Shown: one piece after another, positions 1 through 17,298 of the stretch
How the letters are laid out: each line of letters begins with the position of its first letter
Numbering within the stretch: the stretch's first letter is position 1
Assembly: GCA_013360485.1 (NCBI GenBank)
Contig: JABWBN010000021.1
Coordinates: 1 to 32,436, forward strand
Length of the DNA stretch: 32,436 nucleotides
From: Burkholderiaceae bacterium
Lineage (GTDB): Bacteria > Pseudomonadota > Gammaproteobacteria > Burkholderiales > Burkholderiaceae_C
Direction of reading: 5' to 3'
Program-made: the position numbers and the translations under genes
Notes under the pieces: model-generated
Databases searched by the model: none
What the model saw: the letters and a program-made list of their open reading frames with translations, nothing else
Told to the model about the DNA's origin: nothing

Positions 1-268
1 ACTCGAACTCGACCCCGACGAGGCCCCGGCACCACCGGAGGCCGGCGCTGCGTCGCCCCCCGAACTCGTGGGCGTGTCGTCGGCTCCGCTGGACCCGGGG
101 GCCGGATGGCTGGCTTGATTCAGCGCTTCTTACCCAACCACTGCGAGCAAACCATGGCACTTACCAAATTCGGATTCATCGTGACGGGCGACGACTTCAT
201 TCAGCACCAGGGAACAGAGCGGTTCTCGATGAAGGTCGTCGGGGTCAGAAGCGCAAGCCAGGGCCCTG
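1..268. repeat. Left arm of a 268-bp inverted repeat at the window ends
   Basis: Bases 1-268 match the reverse complement of 32169-32436 without gaps. Mismatches fall at left positions 100, 101, 146, 183, 228, 240 and 261, so bases 1-99 are identical in both arms. The arm holds the tail of one gene and the first 38 codons of a DUF6506-type gene. Similarity stops abruptly after base 268. The four differences inside the DUF6506 reading frame are all synonymous, which suggests two diverged, selected gene copies rather than a recent copy. Confidence 0.95.
2..118 (+). CDS. 3' end of an unidentified gene (partial)
   Basis: An open frame enters from the left edge and stops at TGA 116-118. The visible 38 residues are rich in Pro, Ala, Glu and Gly and end in GAGWLA, like a flexible C-terminal tail. 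I do not recognise the protein. It lies 35 bp upstream of the DUF6506 gene on the same strand, and the same two-gene arrangement recurs inverted at the right end, so the pair was probably duplicated together. The edge cuts the gene, so no function can be given. Confidence 0.5.
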   Translation, partial: LELDPDEAPAPPEAGAASPPELVGVSSAPLDPGAGWLA

Positions 269-441
269 CTGTCGCACGTGAAATGGTCGCCGAGGGCATC
301 CAACTGATCGAGCTCTGCGGCGGCTTTGGTCCAGTCTGGACATCGAAGGTACTCGAGGCGATCGAGTACAAGATCCCGGTCGGCTCGGTATCCTATGGGC
401 CGGAGTCCATCGACGGCATGTACCACCTGTTTGCCAAGTAG
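154..441 (+). CDS. DUF6506 family protein
   Basis: A 95-residue soluble protein that resembles the DUF6506 family. It opens with KFGFIVTG and carries the block ELCGGFGPVW in the middle and GPESIDGM near the C-terminus. The function of the family is not known to me. I chose ATG 154, because MALTKFGFIVTG is the natural family start. An in-frame ATG at 106 would add 16 residues that overlap the upstream stop codon. No membrane segment or signal peptide is visible. A 5' fragment of a second copy lies inverted at the right end of the window. A stem-loop at 512-546 lies downstream. Confidence 0.75.
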   Translation: MALTKFGFIVTGDDFIQHQGTERFSMKVVGVRSASQGPAVAREMVAEGIQLIELCGGFGPVWTSKVLEAIEYKIPVGSVSYGPESIDGMYHLFAK

Positions 442-511
442 CGGGTCGGATGGCTCGCGGCGATCTGGCAGGGATGCGCCGTGGTGCGGCCCAGGGGATC
501 GATGACGTGTG

Positions 512-546
512 GTGCCGCCGTAACGGTGGCGCCCACGTTACGGCAC
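512..546. terminator. Candidate bidirectional terminator hairpin
   Basis: GTGCC, a 3-nt bulge and GTAACG (512-525) pair with CGTTAC plus GGCAC (536-546) around a 10-nt loop. It sits between the DUF6506 gene (+) and the stop codon of the small membrane protein (-), where a shared terminator would be expected. There is no T tract on either side, so the call rests on stem quality and position. Confidence 0.4.
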
Positions 547-852
547 GACCACCGACAACACCAACGACAAGAGCGCGCACAAGAAGGCCGCGAATCCACC
601 GAAGACGACTGACGACGCCTTCCGTGCCATGAAATTGGTGGGCGCGCGCCCATGCTCCGCCACAGCCAGGAAGCCGCTCAGTAGCAGGAGAAGCGACAGG
701 GTGAAGAGCACGATGGCAATCTTGACACCAGGCTCGTAGGAAGACGATCGCGAAGCAAAGACCAACGCAGCTATGGCGGCTGAGTCAATGGCCAACAGCG
801 TCTTCATCCAGTCCAGTACGTGAGGCACATCGGCCTTGTGGAGCTTGATCAT
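538..852 (-). CDS. Small membrane protein, unknown function
   Basis: A 104-residue protein with three predicted membrane segments: about residues 20-33 (weak), 42-63 (a long Leu/Val/Ile run) and 83-103. ATG 852 is preferred because GAGG lies 5 nt upstream of it, whereas the longer frame to 909 adds a Pro/Cys-rich stretch unlike a protein start. The N-terminus (MIKLHKADVPHVLDWMKTLL) is amphipathic. The protein is about the size of small bacterial inner-membrane proteins of unknown role. I do not recognise the family. It converges with the DUF6506 gene. Confidence 0.6.
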   Translation of the reverse strand: MIKLHKADVPHVLDWMKTLLAIDSAAIAALVFASRSSSYEPGVKIAIVLFTLSLLLLLSGFLAVAEHGRAPTNFMARKASSVVFGGFAAFLCALLSLVLSVVVP

Positions 853-1171
853 CACTACCTCGTTGGGAAACGTTGGAAGGTGCCCCGCTGGGCATGCGCA
901 CGGGGCCATGGAGCGTTAGGTCATTGCGCTCAGCTCGCGAGTGTGCCCCGGTACCCGGGCATCGGCAATACCTGGCCGGCCTGCGCGTGACGGCAGTTGC
1001 CTACCGGCAGGCACCCGCGGTTCGGGCGACGAAGCTCGAAGAAGCGTGGCATTTTGGGGTGTTTCAGGATGTTCAGATGGCCCGGATCCGGCTAGCCTTT
1101 GGCATGCCGAAATGGGCGCGGTTGCACGCCGTCGGCACCGGTTTCGTCCACTTCCATGGGGCGACTGATCG
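853..1171. other. Intergenic, 319 bp, between divergent genes
   Basis: This stretch separates the divergent membrane-protein and GGDEF-EAL genes, so it should hold promoters for both. I see only a small imperfect inverted repeat at 945-960 (GCCCcGG/CCcGGGC) and a second one near 990-1015. I saw no convincing -35/-10 pair and no credible small gene. Confidence 0.5.
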
Positions 1172-3748
1172 ATGCGTAGGAGTGCTTCTTCGAGTGCGCG
1201 AGTGACCGATCCGCTGCCGGCACCGCCACCTGCCGTGCATGAAGTCGAGGAGCTGCGGGTTGCGGTCGAACGGTTGCAGGCAGCCGAGCGGCTGCAGCAC
1301 GCGCTCTATGCCATCACCGATCTGGCCAGTGCCGGGCTGGGCATCCACCAGACGCTGCAGCGGCTGCACGCCGTTGTTGGCGGGCTCATGCCGGCAGAGA
1401 ACTTCTTCGTGGCGCAGTACGACGACGCCACCGCCACCATCACGTTCCAGTACTTCGCCGACATTCGAACCGAGTCGCCACCCATCGATACGCCTATACC
1501 GCTGCAGGTACTGGAGCAGGGGCTTACGTGGTACGTGATCCACGATCGCAAGCCGCTGCGTGGATCGCTGGAGGAAATCGGTCGCCAGGTGTCCGGCCCG
1601 CTGAGGGCGCGCGGTGTCGATGCAGCGGATTGGCTCGGTGTACCCATGCTGGATGGCGCCGATGTGAGCGGCGTGCTGGTTGTGCAGAGCTATGAGCACA
1701 AGGGCATCTATGACGAAGCATCGCAGGCACTCCTGACCTTCGTGGCCTCGCATGTGCAGACTGCACTGCAACGTTGGCACACGCATGACGCGCTGGAGCG
1801 GGCCGTCGCCAGCCGCACCGCTGAACTGGCATCGGCGAACACCGTATTGCGTGCGGAGGTGGCAGCGCGGCAGCGCGGCGAAAACCTGCAGCAGGCGTTG
1901 TACCGGCTTGCCGAATTGAGCAGCAGCCCGGTCAGCTCGGACGAATTCCACCGCGAGGTGCATGACGTGGTCGGGGGGCTGCTCAACGCCGCAAACTACT
2001 TCGTCGTTCTGCCCAGCGCAGATGGCACCGAACTGCACGTACCCTATCACGTCGATGAGCGCGACCCGACCATCCACCGGCGGCCGGCTGGCCGTGGGTT
2101 GACCGAGTACGTCTGGCGTACGGGCAAGCCATTGCTGGCCGAACCCGAGCAGATCCGCGAACTGGAGCTGTCGGGTGAGGTCAAGGTGTGGGGAGCGTGG
2201 CCCACATCGTGGCTCGGGGTGCCGCTGCGCTGCGAAGGAGCCACCCTCGGCGTGCTGGCCGTGCAGAGCTATACGCCTGAGACGCGCTACAACGAGCGCG
2301 ACCGGGACCTTCTGGTGTTTGTGTCGCATCAGATCGCCAGCAGCCTGGAGCGGCGGCGGGCGGCGGATGCCTTGCGCGATGCCAACACAGCGCTCGAGTT
2401 GCGGGTCGAGGAGCGAACGCGCGAGCTGCGCGAGCAGATCCAGGTGCGCGAGCGCGTGGAGGAGCAGCTCAAGCACGAGGTTGTCCACGACGCGCTGACC
2501 GGGCTGCCCAACCGGAAGTACCTGCATGACCGGCTCAGCCGTTTGTGTGCTGCGTACAAGCGCGACGCGCGCCGCGCTTTCGCGGTGATGTTCATGGACA
2601 TCGACCGGTTCAAGCTGATCAACGACAGCATGGGCCACCACGTCGGCGACGAGGTGCTACGCGAAATGGCCAAGCGGCTGAAGGGCGCGCTGCGCGAGCC
2701 CGATGTGGTGGCTCGTCTGGGGGGCGATGAGTTTGCGGCACTGCTCGAAAACGCCGCTCAACCAGATGCTGCGGCTCACATCGCCCAACGCCTGCTCAAG
2801 TCGCTCGAGCCGCCCATGTTGGCGGGTGGGCGAGAGATCGTGATCAGCTCGAGCATCGGGATCGTCATCAGCGACGATCCCGATGCGGGCGCTGACGACC
2901 TGCTTAGGCAGGCCGACGCGGCCATGTACCGCGCCAAGGCGAATGGGCGGCACCGTTTCGAGTTCTACGACAAGGAACTGCACCTGGACGCCATGCGCGT
3001 GCTCGACCTCGAGTCCGAACTGCGCGAGGCCATCAAGGGCAACGAGTTCATCCCCTACTTCCAACCGGTGGTCGATCTGCGCTCACGCAAGGCCGTCGGC
3101 TGCGAGGCTTTGGTCCGCTGGAAGCACCCGCGTCGCGGAATCATCGGGCCGGCGGAGTTCCTGAAGACGGCTGACGACAACGGGTCGATCGAGGACATCG
3201 ATTGGCTGGTCTACGACGCAGCTTGCGCTGCAGTCGCTCGACGCTCGGCCAAGTCGGGTTCGCTGGCGTTGAACGTCTCGCCCCGACACCTCAAGCGCGA
3301 GACCTTTGTGCCCAAGCTGCTGGCCGTGCTCGACTGGTATGGGTTGGCGCCGAGCCAAGTCTGCCTGGAGATCACCGAATCGGCGCTCATCGACAGCCCG
3401 CAGACTGCCGCTGCCCGGTTGCGCCGGCTGCGTGAAGCCGGGGTGCAGCTTGCACTTGACGACTTCGGCACCGGGTTCTCGTCGCTCGCGCACGTGCACC
3501 AGTTGCCGTTTTCGGTGCTGAAGATCGACCGCAGTTTCGTCGCCGGACTCGATCCCGCGCACCCATCGGAGGCCGGCCGCGCTGTGGTGAAGGCGATCAT
3601 GGCGCTCGGCCGCTCGCTCGACCTGAAAGTCATCGCCGAGGGGGTCGAGACCGAAGGGCAACGGCTTGCCCTGCTCGAGCTGGACTGCACGCTGGCGCAG
3701 GGCTACCTGTTCGCGCCACCGCTGGCAGCGCCACCTGAAGTCGACTGA
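1172..3748 (+). CDS. GAF-GAF-GGDEF-EAL cyclic-di-GMP enzyme
   Basis: An 858-residue cytoplasmic protein with no membrane segment. Two GAF-type sensor domains (about 40-200 and 245-405) are each followed by an Arg/Glu-rich helix that looks like a signalling coiled coil. A diguanylate cyclase domain follows (about 440-600) with intact GGDEF at 517-521 and an upstream RxxD inhibitory I-site (REPD). The last domain is a phosphodiesterase (about 615-858) with EAL at 645-647, LNVSP, EITES, DDFGTG, KIDRSF, AEGVET and QGYLF, so the catalytic and metal-binding positions look complete. Both activities appear possible; which one dominates cannot be read from sequence. The start is uncertain: ATG 1172 has only a weak ribosome site, and GTG 1202 is an alternative. 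The gene faces the hybrid kinase tail to tail. Confidence 0.93.
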   Translation: MRRSASSSARVTDPLPAPPPAVHEVEELRVAVERLQAAERLQHALYAITDLASAGLGIHQTLQRLHAVVGGLMPAENFFVAQYDDATATITFQYFADIRTESPPIDTPIPLQVLEQGLTWYVIHDRKPLRGSLEEIGRQVSGPLRARGVDAADWLGVPMLDGADVSGVLVVQSYEHKGIYDEASQALLTFVASHVQTALQRWHTHDALERAVASRTAELASANTVLRAEVAARQRGENLQQALYRLAELSSSPVSSDEFHREVHDVVGGLLNAANYFVVLPSADGTELHVPYHVDERDPTIHRRPAGRGLTEYVWRTGKPLLAEPEQIRELELSGEVKVWGAWPTSWLGVPLRCEGATLGVLAVQSYTPETRYNERDRDLLVFVSHQIASSLERRRAADALRDANTALELRVEERTRELREQIQVRERVEEQLKHEVVHDALTGLPNRKYLHDRLSRLCAAYKRDARRAFAVMFMDIDRFKLINDSMGHHVGDEVLREMAKRLKGALREPDVVARLGGDEFAALLENAAQPDAAAHIAQRLLKSLEPPMLAGGREIVISSSIGIVISDDPDAGADDLLRQADAAMYRAKANGRHRFEFYDKELHLDAMRVLDLESELREAIKGNEFIPYFQPVVDLRSRKAVGCEALVRWKHPRRGIIGPAEFLKTADDNGSIEDIDWLVYDAACAAVARRSAKSGSLALNVSPRHLKRETFVPKLLAVLDWYGLAPSQVCLEITESALIDSPQTAAARLRRLREAGVQLALDDFGTGFSSLAHVHQLPFSVLKIDRSFVAGLDPAHPSEAGRAVVKAIMALGRSLDLKVIAEGVETEGQRLALLELDCTLAQGYLFAPPLAAPPEVD

Positions 3749-3811
3749 TCAGGCGGTGGCGGCAGCACCCGATCGCCGGTCAGCTGCAGACACCGACCTG
3801 GGGTGCCATCG

Positions 3812-6652
3812 TCACGATTTCGCGCCCCCCGCGACCTGCATCAATTGCACTTCAAGCCGATGGGCATCGATCGCGTTCAGGAACATCTGGAGTGCATCGA
3901 CCACCGGTGCCGGGTCGGGCCATGAAACCGGCTTGCCACTGTCCATGGCCAGCATCACCTGTTCGCGCAACAGCGACTCGAAGTGCAGTGCACGCGCCCT
4001 CAGGTCGTCGGCTCCCAGAGTGGCTGCCAGACCCTTCAAGGTGTGGACCTGTCGCAGCGCGGAGTCGTGATCACCCCTTCGGCGCGCGTCTTCGAGCGTC
4101 TGGGTAGTCTCCTCGTGGCATTGCCGAAATCGCTCCAGCACGGTCTCCACCAGCGCATCGCTGCCGAGCAACTGGCGTGCCTTTTCGAAGTCGATGTCGC
4201 ATCGACTGACCTGCATCGGCGAGCACGGCGGGCTGACTCCCGTTGCCGCTGCTTCCGAGGTTCCAATCTCATCCGCACTGGCACTTGCCATCAGGGGATG
4301 GTTCAGCCAGGTGCCAAGGCTTTGCCACAGCCGCTCCGGCTCGGTCGGCTTGGTCAGCACATCCTGCATGCCCGCTGCCAGGCATCGCGCCAAGACATCA
4401 CTCCTGGCGTCGGCTGTCAGGGCGATGAGTGGAAGCTGGCGCCATCGCTCGTGCTGGCGAATCTCCAGCGCGGTCGCGTATCCGTCCATCACCGGCATCT
4501 GCAGGTCCAGCAGCACGAGGTCGAACGTGTGCGTTTCCGCCTCGGCGAGTTCTCGAAGCAGCGCTTGCCCGTCGCCCACGCAAGTCACCTGCAGCCCCAC
4601 CGACTCGAGCAACTCGGTCGTGATGTGCTGGTTCACCGGGTTGTCTTCGGCCAGCAATACACGCTCGCCGTCGAACCGAGCAGTGTCCGCGTTGTCTGCG
4701 CTCGTGTCCCGCTCAACCACGGCAGCCTTGCTCGCGGCAACGCCCGTCTCTTCCGCACGATCGAACGGCAGTTGAAACGCGAACACGCTTCCGGCGCCCG
4801 GTGCGCTCTGAACCCGCAACTCACCGCCCATCAGTCGCACGAGCCGCTGGGCAATCGCCAAGCCCAGCCCTGTGCCGCCGTGGGTCTGTGCCGTCGACGC
4901 GTCGGCCTGCTCGAACGGCTCGAATACCCGAGCCAACTGCTCGTGCGTCATTCCGATGCCGGTGTCGCGCACCCGCACGAACAAGTCCACGCCAGAGCGG
5001 ACCGAAGGCGAACGGACACCGACTGACATCGATACGCGCCCCCCCTGTCCGGTGAACTTCACCGCATTTGCACAAAGATTGAGCATGACTTGCGTCAGCC
5101 GCAGAGCGTCACCCACCAGATGCGCCGGCACCAGTGGATCGGTGTCGACCGAGAACGCGACCTCTCTTGCAGCGGCCATCAGGGCGACGACCGCGCTCAC
5201 GTCGGACAACACCGCGTTGATGGCAAACTGGCTCTGGCACACACGGAGACGGCCCTCCTGGATTTTCGAGAAATCCAGCACGTCGTTGAGCAGCCCCAGC
5301 AGCGTGCGCCCTGCCCTGTGGATCTTGTCGAGGTAGTCGTGCGTTCGCTCATCGTGCTGCCCCTGCAGTGCCAGGTGGGCCAGGCCAATCACTGCATAAA
5401 GCGGTGTGCGGATCTCGTGGCTCATGTCCGCGAGAAACGCGCCGCTGGCTCGCGCGGCCGTCTCAGCCTGCAACCGTGCCGCGCGCTCGCGCTCGAGCGC
5501 ATGTTCCAGCATGAGCGCCTGCACGCGCAACGCGGATGCTGCGGCCATCAGTTCGGCTTGCAGCGCGGCGTAGCGGGCACCTGAGTCGTGCGCGGCCTTC
5601 CAATCCTCCAGCGCTACGTGCGTCAGGCGCTCCTGCTCGGCCAACAGCAATGGCAGATAAGTCACTTCGCAACGGTCGCTGTATTCACGCGCCTGGGTGA
5701 TGGCCTGCAGCGAGCCCTGTGGGTCGTCGCACCGCAATGCCAGCGTCGCTTTGGCCAAGCCCAAGTGCAACATGAACACCTGCACCCAGTTGCGCTGTCC
5801 GCCGTCAAGGTTCTGCTCCTTGAGCTTCGCCTCCAACTGATCGAGCCAGCCCCTGGCCTGCTCTACCGTCGTTCCGCCCTTTGCGGCCAGGTGTATGGCC
5901 ACCGTTTGGCCGTAGAGCGTGTGCCGTTCCAGCGGCGCCGAGCCGAACTCGGCCATCCAGCGTGCCATCAGCGCCTGCGATCTCTGGGGCGACCCCAACG
6001 CCAGATGCGCCATGGCGAGACTGGGCGGCGTCGAGCGTCGTCGGTTGACCAAGTCGTGGCGCTGCGCCAGGGCCAGCGCCTCGGTGAAGCGCTCCACCGC
6101 GTCGTGAAAGCTGCCGTGATTGAAATGCAGGAACCCCAGATTGTGGAGCGCCAGTGCAGTGGCACAGTCCTCGCCCATCTCGCGGGTGATGTCCAGCCCG
6201 AGCAGGGCGTAGCGCAGGCCATCGTGCACGTTGCGTGTCGCCAGCGACGTCACCACATGGGCGTTGCAGCAGCGGAAGCGACACCAGTCGGGAAGCGTAT
6301 TGAACTGCGGGGTGACGCAGCGCGCGAGGACGGCCGAAGCCCCCTCACCGTCGCCCAACGACGAACGCAGCGCGGCAGCCGACGCATGGCACATCACCGA
6401 GCCCTTGGTCAACCGCAGTGCCTCGAACTCCAGCCTCAGGTCGTGAACCTCGGTGAGCAGTTCCGGTCGGGCGCGGCGAGTGATTTCGCCCTCGAGCACC
6501 CAATAGCGGGCCCACAGACCCTCAGGCCCGTCCGGGTCGACCTGTGCAGCGGCGCGGGCCAGCGTGCTCGCGTGCTCCATGTCCCGGTACGCAGTGCGCC
6601 ACAAAGTCTGCACCAGGGCAGACTCGTCGGCCAGTCGCTGCACTTGCTCCAT
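3812..6652 (-). CDS. TPR-containing hybrid histidine kinase (HisKA-HATPase-REC-Hpt)
   Basis: A 946-residue protein with no transmembrane segment. The first ~380 residues are helical repeats of TPR type and probably form the sensor or partner-binding part. A short coiled coil leads into HisKA with the phospho-accepting His412 (SHEIRTPL). The ATPase domain has its N box ([10 protein letters not shown]), DTGIGM and GGTGLGLAI. The receiver domain has AEDN and phospho-acceptor Asp716 (LLDLQMP). The C-terminal Hpt domain has His870 (VHTLKG). All four phosphorelay stations are therefore present in one chain, and the output partner must be another response regulator not seen here. ATG 6652 has AGGAG about 10 nt upstream. 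The chemoreceptor gene lies upstream on the same strand of DNA only as a downstream neighbour in coordinates; the two are not obviously co-transcribed. Confidence 0.93.
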
Positions 6653-6745
6653 CGCGGCCTGCTCCTCATTGGGAGAGGCGCCACTTTACGCCAATTGTGA
6701 CAAGTTGCGACGTGAAGCGATACCGATAATCGCGTGTCGATCCAC

Positions 6746-8296
6746 TTATGCCCGGAGCCGAAAGACGGCAACGGCCTCCAGCAGGTGGGCCGCCTGCTGA
6801 CGCAGGCTTTCGGCCGCCGCGGCCGACTCTTCGACCAGCGCAGCGTTTTGTTGCGTGGCCTGGTCCATCTGGCCCACCGCGTCCCCTACCTGCGACACGC
6901 CTGTGCTTTGCTCAGCGCTTGCCGCGCTGATACCGGCCACGATGCCGGTCACGCGGCCGATGGCCTCGACGATGCCCTGCATGGTTGCGCCCGCGCGGTC
7001 GACCTGGGTGGCGCCGTGGTCGACCTGCGCGACGCTGGCCGCGATCAGGTTCTTGATCTCCCGTGCAGCGTCGGCGCTGCGTTGTGCCAAGTTGCGCACC
7101 TCGGTGGCAACCACGGCAAAGCCTCGACCTTGCTCGCCAGCGCGCGCCGCCTCGACTGCAGCGTTCAATGCCAGGATGTTGGTCTGGAATGCGATGGCGT
7201 CGATCACGCCGATGATGTCGGCGACCCGCCGGCTGCTCTCGCTGATGCCCTGCATCGTGCGCACGACGTCGGCAACGGCGGTTCCACCCTGCGCGGCGAT
7301 GTCGGCCGCTCCTTGCGCGAGCTGATCGGCCTGGCGCGCGTTGTCGGCGTTCTGGCGGACAGTCGAGCCCAACTGTTCCATCGAAGCCGCGGTTTGCTCC
7401 AGTGCGCTGGCTTGCTCTTCGGTGCGCTGGCTCAAGTCGAGGCTGCCATTGGCGATCTGCGCACTGGCGGTGGCCACGCATTGCGCGTCCGCGCGCACGG
7501 TGCCAACCACGCGGGCGATGTTGTCGCGCATGATCTGCAAGGCGTGACCCAAGCGCGCCAGTTCGTCGTGACCGCGGCTGTCGATCTGGGTGCCGAGGTC
7601 GCCATCGGCGATCCCGCGGATCGAGACGATCGACGCGTCGAGCGGCGCCATGATCGATCGACCAATCAGGGCACTGAAGGTCAGGCCCAGCAGCGCGGCT
7701 ATGCCCAGCGTGAGCCACAACGCGACGCGCGAACCAGCGACGACGCCCGTGAATTCCTGAGCGCTCAGGCCGGCAAACGCATTGCCGGCCTCTACGGTGC
7801 GTCCCACGTCGGCCCGGTGCTGGGCGAACAGTTTGTGCAGCGCTGCGAGGTCGGCTTGCAGCGCTTCACGTGGTTCGCGAACAGCCCGTTCAGACAGGGC
7901 ACGGGTGGCAGTCAGCAACTGCTCGGCCGATTGGTGCTGCGCACCCAGCAACTGGCGCTCGAGCCCGAACGGTGGGTTGGCACGCCAATGCTGCACACGG
8001 GCGGCGTACTCGTCGCCCAGGCGCTTGATCTCGGCCTGCGCTTCGCCCGCACTGAGCGTGCCATCGACCAACTGCGATGCCACCAGACGCAACTCGATCA
8101 AGTACATCGGCGGCGGCAGGATGTCGGCCACCACGTCTTTCGACACGAAGACCCGTTCGCTGAGTTGCGTCAGCCGCTGGGCGGCCCACAGACCTACCGC
8201 CACAGCGGCTGTCAATGCCAGTATGCTCAGGCCGGACAGCATGCCCAGCCGCGTGCGGATGGTGGTCTTGCGTAGTGCGTGGCTGATAGCGGCCAT
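6746..8296 (-). CDS. Methyl-accepting chemotaxis protein
   Basis: A 516-residue chemoreceptor. A membrane helix at about 17-40 is followed by a ~150-residue periplasmic region that looks like a four-helix-bundle sensor. A second membrane helix (about 190-212) leads into a HAMP domain and a long helical signalling domain. The CheA/CheW-contacting hairpin tip is clear ([20 protein letters not shown], then [18 protein letters not shown]). There is no C-terminal CheR-binding pentapeptide of the xWxxF kind; the protein ends AVFRLRA. ATG 8296 is chosen because GGAG lies 7 nt upstream and [16 protein letters not shown] fits a chemoreceptor start. No che genes are nearby, so it must feed a pathway encoded elsewhere. 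The ligand cannot be inferred. Confidence 0.95.
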
Positions 8297-8603
8297 GTCA
8301 TGACTCCGTTGTGACGTGAACTGCGATGCGTCACACGACGATGCACGCCGTACCCGCGTCACACCAGGCCTTCTGGCGAACCCGATACAGCAGTGGGCCG
8401 CGCGCTACTCGCTACGGGCGCAATGTTGCGCCTGATCTGCCACCGGCAAGTGCGGAAGTTGCGTGGTATTGCGGTGCCAATTCGACGCAGGTCCCAACCG
8501 CATGGCGCTCGTTGCCCGCATGTCGCCTGCCGATGCGACAGGTACCGTCACCCCAAACCCGTGCGACGGCCCGCTTGCGCAGGTTCTCGCCGCCAGAATA
8601 GGC
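8297..8603. other. Intergenic, 307 bp, upstream of the chemoreceptor
   Basis: This lies between the chemoreceptor start and the end of the Bug-AraC gene, both on the minus strand, and should contain the chemoreceptor promoter. GTGACG-like words recur in its chemoreceptor-proximal third. I found no sigma-28 or sigma-54 type promoter, terminator hairpin or credible gene. Confidence 0.45.
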
Positions 8604-10535
8604 TCAGTCGTGGCTGCGCCGCCCGCGTTGCGCCGCCGCCCCCAGTCGGGCCCTGGCTTGTCGGTCGCGGTCGAATTCGCGGCAGGTGGGGCAATGCCGA
8701 TGCTGCGCTCGAACATGGCGCAACAACTCGTTCGAGCGCAGGCCCACCACGCGTACCTGAGCCGTGTCGCGCAGCGCGCTCGGGTGGTCACCCAAGTGGC
8801 TCATGAAGGCCCGCAGCATGTGGCCGCTGTCCGTGTATCCGGTCAAGTGCGCGATCTGCCCCAGTGGAAGGTCCGGCTCGAGGACCGCAAGTTGCACGGC
8901 GAACATGAGGCGTTGCCAGGCCACGACGCTTCGAAACGGCAAGCCGACTTCATCTGAAAACACCTTTGACAGCCGTGCGGTGGACAGCCCCATCTCGCGC
9001 GCGACTTGATCGAATTCGATGTCCAATTTGGTCTGGACCCGCCGCAGCGCCCAAGCCAGGCGGGAGTCGTTCTCGCGGCGGGCACAGGGGTCGCAGCCCA
9101 GTGCTTGCATTGCACGCTCGGCGAGCGCACGTGCGGTGCCCAGGCCGATGCGGCCGCTCTCGGTGCGCACCACGTGCGACCACAAGTCATCGGGAACGGC
9201 GCCGTCCATCACCGTGACGGGCATCGTGCACAAGCGCTTCAGAGCGACGAAGGACGGGTGGGTCACGTTGACGCCCACGACCACGATCGTGGAACTCGCT
9301 CCGACCAGCCGGTGGGGTGTCAGAGGATGGATCAGGGCCGCTCGCACAGGGCCGATCGCCGACGATACCGTTATGGCGTCGCCATCGCCGACCTCCACGG
9401 TGAACCCAACCGAGCCACTGGTGAACGCGAGCAGCACATCATGGCGTTGAACCCAGGTTGTCTCGCCGCGATGCCAACCCACCACGTTGGTTCGGCCATC
9501 GCATGCAACGATGGTCTTGGCCACCTCGACATGCCCGGCGGGATCGACCAGCGACGATGCCCAGTCCTGCACATCTGAGCTGGAGCCGCTGGTCGCCGGG
9601 CGAGTCGCTCGGAGGGTCCGCTCTGCCAAACCTTCGGGTGGCCCCGCCAACGGCACGATGCCTTGTGCCGCCGTAATCTGGGCGAATGGGGCCGACAGCA
9701 CGGTTGCACGCAATGCGCGCTGCAACACCTCCACCGCTGCGGCATCGGTGCCGGGTGGGGCAACCAAACCAAACCAGGCCGCATCGGACACTGCGGGCAA
9801 GCCGAGCTCGCTGAACGTGGGGGTGTCAGGCAACAGCACCGACCGCGTCGTGTCGGCGACGGCCAGCGCACGAACGCTGCCGTCGCGGAGGTACGGCAGC
9901 AACGTGGGCAGGCTCTCGAAGATCAGGTGCACGTCGCCGCGTACCAGCGCGTCGAAGTACGAGCGCGTGCTGCCGTCTTGGCCGACGTGCTCGAAGGGCA
10001 GACCGGTCAGGCGCATCAGGCGGGTCAATCGGGCATGACCCAGGGTTCCCACGCCCCGTGTCGCGAACCGCAACAGCGTGTTCGACGTCGGCACCATGGC
10101 AACTAGATCGCGCAACGTGCGCACCGGAAGCCGAGCACAAATGCCAAGTACGCTCGGGACGCTGGCCACCGTACCGATGGGCACCAGCGCGCGGGCCTCG
10201 GCGTCACGCTTGAGGTGATGCACGACCGCCGCGGCCCTCAGGGTACTGACTGTCGCCAGCCCCAGGGTGCAGCCGTCAGCCGGGGCGTTGGACAGCACAT
10301 CGATGCCCTGTGTCCAGCTCCGGCCACTGCCATTTCGCACGACGACCACGGTGCACAGCTGCGAAGCAAGCAGCGGCGCCAGCATGCGCGCCACCAGGTC
10401 GGTGCTGCTGCCCGGGGCGAACGAGTCGAGCAAAGTGATGGCCCCTGGCGGCGCCAACACGCCCAAAGACGCCGCTAGCGCGCCGCCACTGACTGCCGTC
10501 TCGCTGACTGCCCTGAACCGAAGTTGCCGCTTCAT
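8604..10535 (-). CDS. Bug-type binding domain fused to cupin-like and AraC DNA-binding domains
   Basis: An uninterrupted 643-residue frame with three parts. Residues ~30-310 resemble Bug/TctC binding proteins of tripartite tricarboxylate transporters: FAPGSSTD in place of the usual FxPGGxxD, GTLGHARL, an FExLP strand, RALAVADTTRS and LLPDTPTFSELGLP. Residues ~335-475 look like the cupin ligand domain of AraC regulators (WHRGE, then HPLTPHRLVG). Residues ~500-590 form a double helix-turn-helix of AraC type (VAREMGLSTARLSKVF and IAHLTGYTDSGHMLRAF). No strong signal peptide is present, which fits a cytoplasmic one-component regulator that uses an extracytoplasmic-binding fold as sensor. ATG 10535 is preferred to TTG 10583. 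It is divergent from a LivJ-like binding protein, its likely target. No tctA or tctB is nearby. Confidence 0.85.
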   Translation of the reverse strand: MKRQLRFRAVSETAVSGGALAASLGVLAPPGAITLLDSFAPGSSTDLVARMLAPLLASQLCTVVVVRNGSGRSWTQGIDVLSNAPADGCTLGLATVSTLRAAAVVHHLKRDAEARALVPIGTVASVPSVLGICARLPVRTLRDLVAMVPTSNTLLRFATRGVGTLGHARLTRLMRLTGLPFEHVGQDGSTRSYFDALVRGDVHLIFESLPTLLPYLRDGSVRALAVADTTRSVLLPDTPTFSELGLPAVSDAAWFGLVAPPGTDAAAVEVLQRALRATVLSAPFAQITAAQGIVPLAGPPEGLAERTLRATRPATSGSSSDVQDWASSLVDPAGHVEVAKTIVACDGRTNVVGWHRGETTWVQRHDVLLAFTSGSVGFTVEVGDGDAITVSSAIGPVRAALIHPLTPHRLVGASSTIVVVGVNVTHPSFVALKRLCTMPVTVMDGAVPDDLWSHVVRTESGRIGLGTARALAERAMQALGCDPCARRENDSRLAWALRRVQTKLDIEFDQVAREMGLSTARLSKVFSDEVGLPFRSVVAWQRLMFAVQLAVLEPDLPLGQIAHLTGYTDSGHMLRAFMSHLGDHPSALRDTAQVRVVGLRSNELLRHVRAQHRHCPTCREFDRDRQARARLGAAAQRGRRSHD

Positions 10536-10957
10536 CCTGATACCCCGGACACGCGTCCGGCGCCCAGACACGCTGTCGGCCAAAACCCCGTCGGGATCGC
10601 GCTCAGCGGGTGATCTTCGGCCGCGGCGCGCGGGTCAACCGATCGCCACCACTTGCGAATCATCTGGAGTGGGCAAGGGCAAACTGACGACATTCTGACG
10701 AGCTGCGGATAACGGAACATGGCAGGTCACCCGTGAGGGCTGACCTCAATTGGACTCCATGCCCGGTTCGGTCATGGAGCAAACTCTTGGCGGTTGCCAA
10801 TGAATGCGATGAATGGTCGCTGGTGCGGCCTCAACGGCAGGTCGAACGCGCCCCAATCACAAGTGGAAACTCTTGACCTCGGGAGTTCCACCCTGGTTGC
10901 CTGCGCCGCAACCATCCATATTGCGCCGTCGAACGCACAGGCTTTCATGAGGTACTG
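10536..10957. promoter_or_regulatory. Divergent control region between the Bug-AraC regulator and a binding-protein gene
   Basis: This 422-bp gap contains several ordered repeats. A perfect inverted repeat CTCCATG-N11-CATGGAG lies at 10755-10779. The 9-mer AAACTCTTG occurs twice in the same direction, at 10781-10789 and 10867-10875, 86 bp apart, close to eight helical turns. The second copy lies in a near-perfect inverted repeat TGGAA(A)CTC-N10-GAGTTCCA (10864-10890) that also contains a -35-like TTGACC (10873-10878). AraC-family proteins often bind spaced direct repeats, so these are candidate operators. No firm -10 box was found. Confidence 0.5.
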
Positions 10958-12112
10958 ATGACTACTCCCGGTATTCGGGCTCCGGCTCGGGCGATCGCAG
11001 GCTTCCTGCTCGCGCTGGCATCGTTGACGTGCGCAGCGCAAGGGCTGTTGTTGGCGCAAGTCGCGTCGCTGCGCAACCCAGCGTCCGCCGTCAACGCCCA
11101 TGGCATGAAGGTTGGCATACAGGCCTACTTCGATCAGGTGAACGCGCAAGGTGGCGTTCATGGCCAGAAGGTGCTCTTGCGCCATGAAGATGACGAGCTG
11201 GCAGCGCCCAAGATGGTTGCCCTGGCCAAGCAGCTTGCCGGCGATCCCAAGGTGCTCGCATTTGTCGGCTTCCTGAACTCGGGCGGGCTGGCCGAACTGG
11301 CCAAGAGCAACATGCCGGGCCAGACCGGCATCGCGATGATCGCGCCACTGCAGGGCGAAAAGGCGATCGTCGGCGCGCCGAACTTCTTTCCGTTCCGGTC
11401 GGGCTACACCGACGAGTTGCGCGCCATCATGCGCGAGGCGCGCCAGACCGAGCGCAAGCGCGTGGTGATCGTCTCCATCAACTTTGCATTTGGGCCCACG
11501 ATGGGCCCGTATGCGGCAGAGGCAGCGAAGGCGGCGGGCGTGCCTGTTGCCGCACGCCTGACGCTCGACGGCGACCCGGCGAAGTTCGAAGCCACCATTG
11601 ATGCCGCGGTGGAGGCAACCGCAAACGCGCAGGCCGATGCGGTGGTCCTCGTCGCTGCCGGCCGCTATGCCACGGGATACATCCGCGCGCTCAAGTCCAC
11701 GCCGGCAGGGCGTGCACAGGTGTACGCCATGTCCGTAGTGCTCCCAGAAGACGTCGTCAAGGCCGTGGGTGTCGATGCCGCGCGCGGCATGGTCTTTGCC
11801 CAGCCGATGCCGTTCCCGTATTCTGCCGCGCTGCCCCTGGTAGCGGACTACCAGCAGACGATGAAGAAGTACGCCGCCAACGAGCCGCTGGGCTACGCCA
11901 GCCTCGAGGGGTATGTGGGTGCGCGAGTGGCAGTTGAAGCGCTGCGACGTGCCGGGCCGAACCCCACGCGCGACAAGATCGTGCAGGCGCTGCACGCGTT
12001 TGGCGAGTTCAACCTCGGCGGTGTCTACCTGCACTACAGCCCGCGTCAGCGCAGCGGCTGGGGTCAGGTCGAGCTCACCATCCTGGGCGCGCAGGGCAAG
12101 CTCATCCGGTGA
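10958..12112 (+). CDS. LivJ-like periplasmic amino-acid-type binding protein (orphan)
   Basis: A 384-residue exported solute-binding protein of the branched-chain amino-acid family (Peripla_BP_6 type I fold). Residues 1-27 form a signal peptide ending in CAAQG. The mature part has the usual opening (NAHGMKVGIQAYFDQVN), the conserved GGVHG turn and a C-terminal FNLGGVYLHYSP block near the end of the fold. ATG 10958 has GAGG 5 nt upstream. There are no permease or ATPase genes nearby, so it must use a transporter encoded elsewhere or serve as a sensor. It is transcribed away from the Bug-AraC regulator, which probably controls it. The ligand is unknown; an amino acid or aromatic acid is typical for the family. 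Confidence 0.9.
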   Translation: MTTPGIRAPARAIAGFLLALASLTCAAQGLLLAQVASLRNPASAVNAHGMKVGIQAYFDQVNAQGGVHGQKVLLRHEDDELAAPKMVALAKQLAGDPKVLAFVGFLNSGGLAELAKSNMPGQTGIAMIAPLQGEKAIVGAPNFFPFRSGYTDELRAIMREARQTERKRVVIVSINFAFGPTMGPYAAEAAKAAGVPVAARLTLDGDPAKFEATIDAAVEATANAQADAVVLVAAGRYATGYIRALKSTPAGRAQVYAMSVVLPEDVVKAVGVDAARGMVFAQPMPFPYSAALPLVADYQQTMKKYAANEPLGYASLEGYVGARVAVEALRRAGPNPTRDKIVQALHAFGEFNLGGVYLHYSPRQRSGWGQVELTILGAQGKLIR

Positions 12113-12154: not shown

Positions 12155-13462
12155 TCAGCCGTTGGGCTCCTCGGGCAGCAAATCGCTGATCACGCGCGCA
12201 ATCAGCGCCTCGCATTGCGCCAGCTGCGACATCTCGACGTACTCATCGGGCCTGTGAGCCAGAGAGATGGACCCGGGCCCGATCATCACGGTTGGGATTC
12301 CGTCGCGCTGATACCAGCCGGCCTCGGTGCCGAAGCTGACATACCGCGGGCGCTGCGCGCTCGCTCGCGACAGCCGGCGCAGCAGCGCCGCGACCCGGCC
12401 ATTGCCGTGTGCACTCTCGCCCGCGAACTCGTATGGCGGCAGGTAGGAACGGCGCACCCACTCCACCGCTGCGTCGGGGTGCTGCGCGCGCATGCGCGGC
12501 AGCATTTCCGTTTCGAGGAACTGTCGCAACTCCGCCTCGAACTGTTCGACGTTGGTTCGGGGCAGGTGTCGCATCTCGACATCGAACTCGCACAACGACG
12601 GCACCGTATTGGCACTCAGGCCACCCCGGATCATGCCGGTCTGCACAGTGGAGTGGTGTACGTCGTAAGCCCGGTCGGGTTCTTCGCGCTCGAGCCGGCG
12701 AGCGGCCAGCGATTGGATCTGCAGCACGATAACCGCTGCGTTCTCGATTGCGTTCATCGCACGAGGAACGAGCGCCGAGTGTGCATCCTTCCCGCGCACG
12801 CGGCAAACCCAGTGCGCACGCCCCTTGTGGCCGACCACCGGTTGCATTTCGGTCGGGCAACCCAGCAGACAGCCCTGTGGCATGGGCGACGTGACGTCAC
12901 GCATGTCGACCAACAGGCGCTTGACGCCATCCATGCTCGTCTCTTCGTCGAAGGTCAGCGCGATATGGATGGGGCGCTCGAGTCCCGCCTCGATGATCCG
13001 CGGCACCATGGACAGGCATGCGGCAATGTATCCCTTGGCGTCCGCCACGCCGCGACCGTAGATTCGGCCGTGCCGCTGCACCGCTACGAAGGGGTCACTC
13101 GTCCAGGTCTGGCCACTGACCGGCACCACATCGGTGTGCGCGGCAAGCATCAGGCCCGGCAGATGACCCGTGCCAACCGACGCGAACAAGTTGGCCTTGC
13201 GCCCCTGCGAATCGAAACTGAGCCGGCAAGGCACGCCATGCGACTGCAAGTACTCGCGGCACCAGAAAATCAGCTCGAGGTTGGACTCCGACGACTCGGT
13301 GTTGAACCCCACCAGCTTGCGCAGGATTTCGAGCGTGGCCATCGTCGGCAAGGGGCCGGGCACGTTGTCGAGCACGAATGGCGGTGGCGCAACCTGCCGA
13401 CCGGATGACCCGCGTCCGGCTGGCGCGCTGCGAGCAAAGTCGATAGGGGGCGTTCGATTCAC
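12155..13462 (-). CDS. argE: M20 family metallohydrolase, ArgE-like (acetylornithine deacetylase family)
   Basis: A zinc-dependent amidohydrolase of peptidase family M20, closest in motif layout to ArgE, which removes acetyl from N2-acetylornithine and related N-acyl amino acids. Visible sites are the metal-ligand block AAHTDVVPV (His109, Asp111), the bridging-Asp block GRGVADAKG, the general-base pair FDEETS, the dimer-domain GKDAHSA and the C-terminal GSISLAHRPDEYV with the last His ligand. GTG 13462 is chosen because AAGAGG lies 6 nt upstream. It gives 435 residues, about 40 more than typical ArgE; ATG 13342 would give a family-standard 395. The context (a second M20 enzyme, orphan amino-acid binding proteins) suggests scavenging of N-acyl amino acids rather than arginine synthesis. 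The exact substrate is inference. Confidence 0.9.
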   Translation of the reverse strand: MNRTPPIDFARSAPAGRGSSGRQVAPPPFVLDNVPGPLPTMATLEILRKLVGFNTESSESNLELIFWCREYLQSHGVPCRLSFDSQGRKANLFASVGTGHLPGLMLAAHTDVVPVSGQTWTSDPFVAVQRHGRIYGRGVADAKGYIAACLSMVPRIIEAGLERPIHIALTFDEETSMDGVKRLLVDMRDVTSPMPQGCLLGCPTEMQPVVGHKGRAHWVCRVRGKDAHSALVPRAMNAIENAAVIVLQIQSLAARRLEREEPDRAYDVHHSTVQTGMIRGGLSANTVPSLCEFDVEMRHLPRTNVEQFEAELRQFLETEMLPRMRAQHPDAAVEWVRRSYLPPYEFAGESAHGNGRVAALLRRLSRASAQRPRYVSFGTEAGWYQRDGIPTVMIGPGSISLAHRPDEYVEMSQLAQCEALIARVISDLLPEEPNG

Positions 13463-13501
13463 GACGATCCTCTTCTTGTGGGGTTGACGCTGGGCGCCGG
13501 A

Positions 13502-13519
13502 AAGTGTGCAAAGTGTGCA
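13502..13519. promoter_or_regulatory. Tandem direct repeat (AAGTGTGCA twice)
   Basis: Two abutting exact copies of AAGTGTGCA lie 40-57 bp upstream of the proposed GTG start of the ArgE-like gene, overlapping where its promoter or operator should be. A tandem 9-mer in phase with one helical turn could be a regulator site. It could also be chance or slippage. Confidence 0.35.
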
Positions 13520-13654
13520 CGCCGGTCGGGCCCTGGCGCAAGTGGCCGCGAGTGCTGGGCGAGCGCACTCGGGCAGTGCGTTGACGCACCCGCGGCCTGC
13601 TGTCAACTGCGCGGCCACACAGGTGTGTTGCGCACCGTGCCGCCCACGCAATGC

Positions 13655-13673: not shown

Positions 13674-13801
13674 TTTGGGCACGCTTGTCGCTGCTGTTTC
13701 CAGGTGGCGCCGGTATCGTGGGCAGCAACAGCGCCGGCTGGCTCAATGGACATGCGAGCCCTGCCGACGCGAGCATTGCCAACAGCGTTCCGGAGACCTG
13801 C

Positions 13802-15019
13802 ATGACGTTGACCACCGCCGCGCCCAAGGTGGAACTGGAGCACCTGAGCGACCGCGCGCCCATGTTGCGCGAGTTGCGCCGACGCATTCACCAGCACCCT
13901 GAACTGGGCTACGAAGAAGAGGCCACCAGTTCCATGGTGGCCTCGCTGCTCCAGGAGTGGGGTTGGGAAGTCACGCGCGAGGTGGGCGGCACAGGCGTGG
14001 TGGCTGTGATGCAGGCGGGCACGGGCTTGCGGCGCATCGGGCTGCGCGCCGACATGGACGCGCTGCCCATTCAGGAGACCTCCGGCCTGCCGTGGGCCAG
14101 TCAGAACGCGGGCGTAATGCATGCCTGCGGCCACGACGGGCACACCGCCATGCTGCTGGGCGCAGCGTGGCACTTGGCGCGCACGCGGGCATTTGACGGC
14201 ACTGTCACCTTGATATTCCAGCCGGCCGAGGAACTGGGGGCCCACGGTGGCGCGCAACGCATGCTGGCCGATGGCCTGTTCAAGCGCTTTCCGTGTGACA
14301 CCGTCTTCGCGGCGCACAACCACCCCGGGGCGCCGGCGGGCCACTTCCTGATCAGGCGCGGGCCATTCATGGCCGCGTCCGATCAAGTGAGCATTCGCAT
14401 CATCGGGCAAGGCGGGCATGCTGCGCGGCCACACCTCACGGTGGACACCACGTTGGTCGCAGCCAGCCTGGTGGTTGCGCTGCAGTCGGTGGTGGCGCGC
14501 AACGTCAACCCGCTGGACAGTGCCGTGCTTACCGTCGGCGCCTTGCAGTCCGGAAAAGCTGCCAATGTCATCCCCGGCCATGCCGCTCTCGAGCTCAGCG
14601 TTCGAAGCTTCGACCCCAAAGTTCGCGAGTTGCTCAGGCAGCGCATCCACGAACTGACGACGTCGCATGTGCAGGGCTACGGCGCCAGGGCCGAAGTGCA
14701 GTTCCTCGACGGAACCCCCATGGTGGTCAACGACAACCGTGCCGCTGCCCTGGCCGAGCGCGTGGCCGTTGCGCTGGTCGGACGCGACCGCGTGGACGGC
14801 CAGGCACCACTTCAGATGGGCGGCGAGGACTTTGCGCACATGCTCATGGCATGTCCCGGTGCGCTGGTACGAATCGGCAACGGCTGCGACCAGGGGCAGC
14901 CCATGCTGCACGACCCCCGCTACGACTTCAACGATGCCATTTTGTGCACCGGAGCGGCATTCTGGGCGCGGCTGGCACAAACCTATCTGGCAGACGGTAT
15001 GGGTGCCGATGCGAACTGA
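13802..15019 (+). CDS. M20D amidohydrolase, hippurate hydrolase-like
   Basis: A 405-residue metal-dependent amidohydrolase of the M20D group, which includes hippurate hydrolase, IAA-amino acid hydrolase and N-acyl-amino-acid amidohydrolases. Visible motifs are the N-terminal RRxIHQHPELGYEE, RADMDALPI, the Cys/His metal block MHACGHDGHTAMLLG (Cys109, His111), FQPAEE with the catalytic Glu pair, the AAHNHPG ligand His, GGHAARPH and the C-terminal GGEDFAHM. Nothing essential is missing. ATG 13802 has GGAG 6 nt upstream, which sets it above the upstream start at 13685. It probably hydrolyses N-acylated or benzoylated amino acids in the cytoplasm. It is divergent from the ArgE-like gene and its last 37 bp overlap the convergent LysR gene. 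Confidence 0.93.
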   Translation: MTLTTAAPKVELEHLSDRAPMLRELRRRIHQHPELGYEEEATSSMVASLLQEWGWEVTREVGGTGVVAVMQAGTGLRRIGLRADMDALPIQETSGLPWASQNAGVMHACGHDGHTAMLLGAAWHLARTRAFDGTVTLIFQPAEELGAHGGAQRMLADGLFKRFPCDTVFAAHNHPGAPAGHFLIRRGPFMAASDQVSIRIIGQGGHAARPHLTVDTTLVAASLVVALQSVVARNVNPLDSAVLTVGALQSGKAANVIPGHAALELSVRSFDPKVRELLRQRIHELTTSHVQGYGARAEVQFLDGTPMVVNDNRAAALAERVAVALVGRDRVDGQAPLQMGGEDFAHMLMACPGALVRIGNGCDQGQPMLHDPRYDFNDAILCTGAAFWARLAQTYLADGMGADAN

Positions 15020-15942: not shown

Positions 15943-16001
15943 GTCGTCATGGCGATGTGCGCGCCTGTCGTTCGACGCGCGCCGGCGCAGTCGGTCAAAT
16001 T

Positions 16002-16013
16002 GCTCGCGCGAGC
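16002..16013. promoter_or_regulatory. 12-bp perfect palindrome in the lysR/binding-protein intergenic region
   Basis: GCTCGCGCGAGC lies in the 126-bp gap between the divergent LysR gene and the second LivJ-like gene. The same gap also holds an inverted GCGCGC pair upstream of it. Position suggests a possible operator, but no family consensus is matched, so this is tentative. Confidence 0.25.
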
Positions 16014-16068
16014 CCGCCCAAGGCAAGCTCCACCCAGCCAACGCCCATCCAGACCCAGAGACGCCAGA

Positions 16069-17298
16069 ATGCCCTCGATTGGCTTCAAGCCAGCGATGAG
16101 GACGTTGCCCGGTTCGCCCGAGCGCGCTCGTCACCCTGGCGCAGCGCTGAGCGTGCGCTGGCGCCGCTTGGTCGCGTCCGGGCTTATCGCCTGGGCCTTC
16201 GCAGCGCAGGCCGGGCCAGGCGTTCATGCCGATCGCATCGTTCTGGGCCAATCGGCCAAGCTCAGTGGAGCCAGCGGCACACTCGCCGGCGTCCAATACC
16301 GGGCGGGCCTGCTGCTGGCGTTCGACCAGGTCAACCGCGAAGGTGGCGTGCACGGCAGGCGCATCGAACTGGTGTCGCTCGACGACCGCATCGACCCTGT
16401 CCGTGCTCGCGCCAACACGCGCGAGCTGATCGAGCGGGTGGGGGTGCTGGCCATGATCGGCAGCACCTTCAGCAACACGGTGCTCGGCGCCTTGCCTGTG
16501 CTGGCCGAACACGGCGTGCCGCTGATTGCGCCCTACACCGGTGTCGGCGACCTGTACACGGGTCGCCATCCCTTGGTCTTCATGTTGCGTGCCAGCTTCG
16601 ACGACGAGCTATCGGCGATCGTGCGCCATCTGGGCACTGTGGGGTATCGCCGCGTGGGCATCGTTCACTACGCCATCCCCATGGGTGATGCCCTGGCCAA
16701 CGACCTTCGCCGGCGCTTGGCCGCAATCGCACAGGGCCTTGCACAAGTGCTGCCCATGGCTCTGGCCTCGCCTGATCCCGCTGCCGCAGCGGCACCGGTT
16801 ATTGCTGGCGCAGCCGTCCATTGCGTGGACTTGATGCTCCTCGGAGTTTCCGGCCGCGACGCCGCCGAAGTCATCCGCGGGCTGCGCACCCGCTGTCCGG
16901 GTACGCAGTTCATCGCACGCAGCCTCGTCGACCCGATCATGCTGCGCAAGGAGCTGGGAGAGCACTCGACCGGCATCATGCTGACCCAGGTGGTGCCCAA
17001 CGCGGCTCGTGGCGAGCACCCGCTCGTCAAGGGCTACCGCAGCCTGCTGGCGCGGCGGCAGCCACCGTCGACCATGGACCCCACCGAGTTCGAAGGCTAC
17101 CTGGCCGGGCAGTTCATGATCGCCGCACTGCGGCAAGCCGGGCCCCAACTCGACCGAGACGCGCTGATCCAGGCGCTCGAACACACAGCCATCGACGGGC
17201 CGGATCACTATCGCCTCAGATTCGCCCGGGGCGAACGCGTGGCCACCCGCTACGTGAACATCGTGATGCTGGCCGACGGCCAGCGCTGGGTGGATTGA
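16069..17298 (+). CDS. Second LivJ-like periplasmic binding protein (orphan)
   Basis: A 409-residue solute-binding protein of the same type I fold family as the one at 10958. It shares the early GQSAKLSGASGTLAGVQYRAG-type opening and the VNREGGVHGRRI turn, and carries FEGYLAGQFMIAALRQAG near the C-terminus. The start is ATG 16069, which leaves a long N-region before the hydrophobic export segment (LVASGLIAWAFAAQA), or ATG 16096, which gives a more usual signal-peptide length. It has no transporter partner genes nearby. It is divergent from the LysR gene and ends at a strong tandem terminator. Two orphan binding proteins so close together suggest related ligands, perhaps products or substrates of the M20 enzymes; that is inference. 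Confidence 0.9.
   Translation: MPSIGFKPAMRTLPGSPERARHPGAALSVRWRRLVASGLIAWAFAAQAGPGVHADRIVLGQSAKLSGASGTLAGVQYRAGLLLAFDQVNREGGVHGRRIELVSLDDRIDPVRARANTRELIERVGVLAMIGSTFSNTVLGALPVLAEHGVPLIAPYTGVGDLYTGRHPLVFMLRASFDDELSAIVRHLGTVGYRRVGIVHYAIPMGDALANDLRRRLAAIAQGLAQVLPMALASPDPAAAAAPVIAGAAVHCVDLMLLGVSGRDAAEVIRGLRTRCPGTQFIARSLVDPIMLRKELGEHSTGIMLTQVVPNAARGEHPLVKGYRSLLARRQPPSTMDPTEFEGYLAGQFMIAALRQAGPQLDRDALIQALEHTAIDGPDHYRLRFARGERVATRYVNIVMLADGQRWVD

Follow-up and report, generated by a model that had tools for sequence, protein, structure and literature searches.

The window, by which we mean the whole stretch of DNA that was analysed, is contig JABWBN010000021.1 (32,436 nt) of assembly GCA_013360485.1, a draft genome of a Burkholderiaceae bacterium (Burkholderiaceae_C) that amounts to 4.3 Mb in 378 contigs and is 84.7% complete. 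On the reverse strand, at 8604..10535, lies a gene for a protein of 643 amino acids in which a Bug domain, a cupin-like barrel and an AraC DNA-binding domain follow one another. The gene runs from an ATG at 10535 to a stop at 8604-8606, with an in-frame TTG at 10583 as a possible alternative start, and its frame spans 676 codons from stop to stop, well inside the 32-kb contig (C26). A random frame of 643 codons with this base composition would be expected to contain about 14 stops, and the probability that it contains none is about 5e-7. The content and order of the domains, the single frame, the folds and the ancestry of the Bug half were all computed directly. The original prediction had described a single-frame combination of these three parts, and it is borne out by the open frame of 643 codons, by Pfam matches to TctC and HTH_18, and by the modelled barrel.

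The regulator gene is separated from a divergent gene by an intergenic region of 422 bp (10536..10957), which is a candidate operator. It holds an imperfect 18-nt direct repeat at 10544-10580, although two-copy families of this kind often arise by chance; no sigma-70 consensus was found in 10536-10957, and no promoter or operator was identified there. The divergent gene (10958..12112, forward strand) encodes a Peripla_BP_6 solute-binding protein and is a candidate target of the regulator by its position only. It is followed by a gene for an M20 deacylase of the acetylornithine deacetylase type on the reverse strand (12155..13651; TIGR01892, 328 bits against a cut-off of 297.7), the true start of which is probably internal, and by a gene for an M20D amidohydrolase on the forward strand (13685..15019; TIGR01891, 352 bits against a cut-off of 153.75), with a LysR regulator gene coming next. 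Two Peripla_BP_6 genes, at 10958-12112 and 15949-17298, flank the M20 hydrolase genes and the LysR gene, and no ABC transporter subunit was found among the nine neighbouring proteins scanned (ORFs up to 19292). The hybrid histidine kinase encoded at 3812-8362 of the window has receiver and Hpt domains as well as weak TPR matches, and its gene adjoins a chemoreceptor gene on the same strand.

The absence of tctA from the vicinity, as originally stated, was confirmed, all three tctA matches in the genome being on other contigs. Contig C357 probably carries a complete tripartite transporter locus at 2548-5323, where a Bug gene and a tctA gene on the same strand are separated by about 0.8 kb. When the DNA of the fusion locus was compared with the 20 other genomes of the genus (14 candidates scored in each), a piece of the divergent gene, 66% identical, was found in one genome only; an earlier query with locus DNA had been dominated by matches to chemoreceptor genes.

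The N-terminal half of the protein is a two-lobed TctC/Bug binding domain (about residues 31-311; 9603..10445, reverse strand), which was recognised by Pfam TctC (PF03401; 113 bits against a cut-off of 27, residues 48-297), by its match to solved structures, by its fold and by its place in a tree. Among solved structures it is closest to terephthalate-binding proteins (8hkb, E 1.6e-40, over residues 30-301), and in fold comparison its model resembles TphC, 2dvz, BugD, MatC and Bug27; the 17 best fold matches are all TctC/Bug proteins, with target-normalised TM scores of 0.70-0.84. The model reaches a pLDDT of at least 70 in 24 of the 27 ten-residue blocks from 31 to 300, with a minimum of 49 at block 101-110, and the final helix typical of Bugs is shortened. 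A linker (residues 312-338; 9522..9602, reverse strand) that is of low confidence in both models leads on to the AraC half, and the interval between the two halves has no 19-residue stretch with a hydropathy above 1.35, so that no membrane span was seen. The halves were modelled separately, and their relative placement is therefore not given by the models; in a full-length model the AraC half was of low confidence. Structure prediction, which had been suggested along with the original prediction, gave credible folds for both halves. A mixed Bug/AraC alignment (A3) was discarded, as it wrongly placed the barrel onto the Bug part.

In a tree of 46 Bug sequences, the Bug half paired with a Bug of the same genus, L037 (support 97/91), and this pair was nested in a clade with 14 further Bugs (L056-L069; support 98/92). 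Downstream of all 15 of these Bugs (L037 and L056-L069), 62-140 bp past the last sense codon and on the same strand, the motif DSPHSG is encoded, and it was found behind none of the 30 other Bugs, for which the flanks covered 0.2 to 4.5 kb and one had no downstream sequence. DSPHSG is a motif of N-formylglutamate amidohydrolases (FGase), and Pfam confirmed that two of the proteins encoded there are FGases (E 8e-69 and 5e-71). The 15 FGase-linked Bugs represent the closest loci kept among the matches listed. The subfamily occurs in many genera of the family, with an FGase-type gene next downstream in every one of the 15 sampled cases, which suggests a ligand class for these Bugs. The divergent neighbour of L037 is a LysR regulator gene. 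Among the matches listed, the FGase-linked Bugs are the closest relatives of the Bug half, at 35-41% identity, but they are separate genes of 321-340 amino acids, with signal-peptide-like N-termini and no fused regulator. Where most members of the clade have the elements ATVST and GxGSLGH, the fusion protein has ATVST and GVGTLGH.

The end branch of the Bug half is very long (2.09, where L037 has 0.83 and the median is 0.21) and its composition is atypical, so its placement is less sure than the support values suggest. The Bug comparisons omit two sequences from the bacterium's own genome, L004, whose frame is cut short, and L005, which had no local BLAST match. NCBIfam, searched at 1e-5, matched neither the Bug half nor seven other Bugs and so named no Bug subfamily. 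Only one FGase match was obtained in the genome. It is on a contig of 10.7 kb, where it directly follows an imidazolonepropionase-like gene, and the ORFs there, judged by eye, resemble an operon for histidine use. This gene was considered as the former partner of the Bug half and was not supported, as its contig carries none of the genome's seven Bug matches.

Many residues that are conserved in Bugs have been replaced in the fusion protein. Of 59 columns with 80% conservation among Bugs, it misses 18, making it the fourth most deviant of the 46; two Bugs from its own genome (L003 and L007) rank above it and another (L006) just below. Relative to the 14 other clade members, the Bug half keeps 68 of 133 conserved columns and L037 keeps 91. 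Of 123 columns in which at least 14 of the 15 clade Bugs agree, it retains 66, and of 50 columns that vary among these FGase-linked Bugs, it has their commonest residue in 5. Agreement in clade-signature columns was 11 of 40; when the signature was defined with L037 left out, the counts out of 48 columns were 14 for the Bug half and 13 for L037. Among the lost positions are the P and Y of the P-Y-K/R-G loop, which reads GQDG in the fusion. An excerpt of PMC8556258 gives P-F-x-A-G-G-x-x-D as a conserved Bug motif; the corresponding site here is S-F-A-P-G-S-S-T-D, in which F, the first G and D are kept and P, A and the second G are lost.

The same excerpt reports that the side chains of T155 and T242 of TphC hydrogen-bond terephthalate directly. 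Read by spacing through the alignment with the Ideonella protein and the residues named in that excerpt (PMC8556258), these two positions are Leu and Ala in the fusion, and likewise Q150 corresponds to Arg and K177-G178-T179 to D-G-S. The Leu at the position of T155 and the Gly that follows it are common to the FGase-linked clade. Terephthalate is improbable as the ligand because these TphC pocket residues are replaced. Judged from the sequence, the altered residues may reflect a changed ligand or a weakened pocket, both of which are compatible with them. Since hydrolysis of N-acylated amino acids is common to the loci of the closest Bugs and to the fusion locus, our guess is that the ligand is an amino-acid derivative of the N-acyl or N-formyl amino acid type.

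Residues from about 325 to 590 align along their full length with stand-alone AraC regulators, which indicates that a complete AraC regulator, and more than a DNA-binding domain, is present. A cupin-like beta barrel of the effector-type N-terminal domain (residues 343-422; 9270..9509, reverse strand) is supported by alignment, by an eight-strand model and by likeness to ToxT, Rns and CsvR, while no Pfam cupin match was obtained in the fusion protein and a weak one in 1 of the 27 aligned AraC sequences. The AraC DNA-binding domain, with two helix-turn-helix units (residues 491-590; 8766..9065, reverse strand), is supported by Pfam HTH_18 (PF12833; 54.6 bits against a cut-off of 33.6, residues 512-590), by the model, and by the match of a profile of the 27-row AraC alignment to the AraC structure 2k9s (E 2.8e-17). 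The model of this half, made with 27 sequences, has a mean pLDDT of 78.5 and shows eight strands at 343-422 followed by helices and the two helix-turn-helix units, and its best fold matches are the whole regulators ToxT, CsvR and Rns (best E 1.2e-9). Cupin-type AraC regulators, both in sequence (L013, L032, L035 and L097) and in fold (ToxT, Rns and CsvR), match the whole C-terminal half, about residues 343-590, but they have no binding-protein domain in front and no such tail as follows here. This C-terminal tail of 53 residues (591-643; 8607..8765, reverse strand), largely helical in the model, includes a Cys-Pro-Thr-Cys motif within HRHCPTCREF, which, from its sequence, is a possible metal or redox motif; the aligned relatives have neither the tail nor the motif.

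The fusion was seen in one draft genome only. Searches with the full protein returned, besides the fusion gene itself, no match past residue 344 among the matches listed, whether in the genus (21 genomes) or in samples of the family (399 genomes), the phylum (398) and the class (369); in the latter three samples, which overlap and include the bacterium's own genome, scoring was limited to 3 candidates per genome. The C-terminal half gave only partial AraC matches, of 21-41% identity, in 299 genomes of the family (up to 7 candidates scored), 399 of the order (up to 5) and 21 of the genus (all). None of 544 matching plasmid records covers 80% of the fusion protein, no relative of the fusion was found on viral contigs, and a pattern scan of genome contigs yielded 64 stretches and no relative. 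A scan of genome contigs for an AraC motif yielded at least 592 stretches and at least 402 relatives; of the loci of the best 80 of these relatives, 6 contained Bug frames, 8 in all, and within its locus no such frame ran on into an AraC part, one of the 8 extending past the locus edge. Long frames behind the AraC matches G311, G303 and G305 were read and had no Bug match in those loci. Scans of this kind would miss a fusion whose Bug and AraC parts are both unrelated to those of this protein. A literature search found no described Bug-AraC protein. The view that the architecture was undescribed thus agrees both with the literature found and with the sequence searches, in which no other single-frame fusion appeared.

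The bacterium's own genome has 4 Bug matches to the fusion at 1e-20, the fusion included, against 4 to 59 in the 20 other genomes of the genus (among the matches listed). In Ramlibacter rhizophilus (L094), a Bug gene with its own stop (2408-3382) is followed on the same strand, after a gap of 106 bp, by a cupin-AraC gene that begins at 3489. A FAD-binding monooxygenase-like gene, an amidohydrolase gene, the Bug gene and the cupin-AraC gene lie together on one strand at 149-4325, possibly as a locus for aromatic catabolism that has a Bug and a regulator to itself. Because this Bug pairs in the tree with L003 and not with the fusion, the case shows that such a neighbourhood occurs and does not represent an ancestor. 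Adjacent, unfused Bug and AraC genes are one conceivable route to a fusion.

The best explanation as a whole, and one to which we give about an even chance, is that the fusion product is a cytoplasmic ligand-sensing one-component regulator. A fusion event would have attached a Bug of the FGase-linked subfamily to the N-terminal side of an entire cupin-type AraC regulator; the Bug domain would close on a small carboxylate in the cytoplasm, and the closed domain would alter the pairing of the AraC part or its DNA binding. The regulator would control its own gene and the divergent Peripla_BP_6 gene, and perhaps the adjacent M20 hydrolase genes. We infer the location, ligand, targets and mechanism; action as a cytoplasmic one-component regulator is plausible. 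A cytoplasmic location is assumed on the grounds that a regulator must be in the cytoplasm to function. We put forward more tentatively a two-sensor regulator, in which a Bug from an amidohydrolase locus, moved into the cytoplasm, might read an N-formyl or N-acyl amino acid while the barrel reads a second signal, with no membrane partner involved.

Other accounts of the gene have to be weighed against this one. The fusion could be recent or neutral, in which case regulation by the AraC part would rely on the cupin-like barrel, and the Bug part would be a ligand-blind passenger that adds only bulk or aids pairing. The long branch, the loss of conserved pocket-loop residues and the completeness of the AraC half by itself are in keeping with such a history, but the Bug fold is predicted with fair to good confidence, and conserved columns are kept much more often than variable ones (66/123 against 5/50), part of this constraint predating the fusion. 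The Bug part is also free of stops, although the need to read through to the AraC part could alone have kept the frame open. On balance we think a passenger role unlikely. It is more doubtful still, and very improbable in our view, that the gene is an artefact of assembly or binning that joined two genes. The genome is a draft of 378 contigs and no second genome has the join, but the join preserves strand and frame, it lies in the linker between the domains, and G+C by codon position runs across the junction of the two halves without a break. Nor is there a near-copy that could have caused a false join, the other Bug matches of the genome being 26-30% identical to the fusion and the C-terminal half having no other match at 1e-6. 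The other two frames of the gene, read by eye, contain no continuation of the Bug or the AraC part. A frameshift or a join of two genes, which the original prediction had named as what could undo it, is accordingly unlikely, and neither this reading of the frames nor the G+C by codon position gave any trace of a frameshift.

The remaining account, that the product is exported as a Bug and that its AraC part is non-functional in the periplasm or made from an internal start, turns on the N-terminus (residues 1-28; 10452..10535, reverse strand). This segment is basic and then hydrophobic and, by hydropathy, is signal-peptide-like or the relic of a signal peptide. Its net charge is +3 over the first 12 residues, and its best 12-residue hydropathy is 1.73, a value that 5 of 45 Bugs do not exceed and that 2 of 26 AraC relatives reach or exceed; with 11 residues, 5 of 37 Bugs are at or below the fusion protein. 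The original claim that a clear signal peptide is absent is therefore not secure, since the hydropathy is within the range of the weaker Bug signals, though the protein lacks the element P-x-[RKQ]-x-[IVL] that comes after the signal in 40 of 45 Bugs. Charge and hydropathy speak for export, and GTG codons in frame at residues 322 and 338 for an internal start. Against this account stand the missing element and the prolines that, by eye, come after the one plausible-looking cleavage site; residues 281-420 include no in-frame ATG, and inspection by eye showed no strong ribosome site ahead of the GTG codons. If the protein were exported, its DNA-binding domain would be useless, which would tell against the regulator. 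We regard export as improbable, if less so than an artefact, and interpret the N-terminus with moderate confidence as the relic of a signal peptide.

The cytoplasmic regulator that we favour has partial counterparts among known systems. The parallel originally drawn with LacI and LysR regulators is apt, and XylR is closer, as it has an AraC domain together with a LacI/GalR-type binding domain. In XylR (4fe4, 4fe7) the sensor domain is in front and the AraC domain is C-terminal, as in the fusion, with the AraC profile matching residues 289-383 of 412; its sensor is of the LacI/GalR type, whereas that of the fusion is TctC/Bug, and XylR is not known to have an extra cupin-like domain. A weak NCBIfam match (E 0.059) linked the fusion to the DNA-binding part of Btr of Bacillus subtilis, presumably a cytoplasmic protein with an AraC domain and a binding-protein-like domain in one chain, which we assume to be of another binding-protein family and in the reverse domain order. 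The Bug/TctC proteins themselves (TphC, TBP of Ideonella sakaiensis, BugD, Bug27 and MatC) match residues 29-305 in fold and sequence, but they are exported single-domain proteins, while the fusion has a shortened C-terminal helix, an AraC regulator after it and an altered pocket loop. Fusions of binding proteins with AraC domains are already known, since the title of Ni et al. (2013), as it appears in PMC8647362, describes XylR of Escherichia coli as a LacI/GalR-type binding domain with an AraC domain. What is new is the direct joining of a Bug domain to an AraC DNA-binding domain, the barrel lying between the two. Excerpts of PMC5812351 and PMC9602780 describe a Bug, BctC, that takes part in regulation through the BctDE two-component system of Bordetella pertussis. 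BctC works from the periplasm through a sensor kinase that is a protein of its own, whereas in the fusion the Bug is joined to the DNA-binding protein itself.

Bugs number in the tens to hundreds in some bacteria, with 79 and 100 members in two model strains according to part of PMC9602780 and 434 in one Rhodoplanes according to part of PMC5994714, and a review (PMC5812351) proposes that their role is one of signalling instead of transport. Periplasmic binding proteins have also been joined to DNA-binding domains in the laboratory (PMC6079105). The weight that one gene in one draft genome can bear is limited. If the fusion is indeed a regulator, it would be direct evidence that the Bug fold can serve as a sensor, a question that could then be addressed with one protein, and it would be a natural counterpart to the laboratory fusions, linking the over-expanded Bug family directly to the control of transcription.
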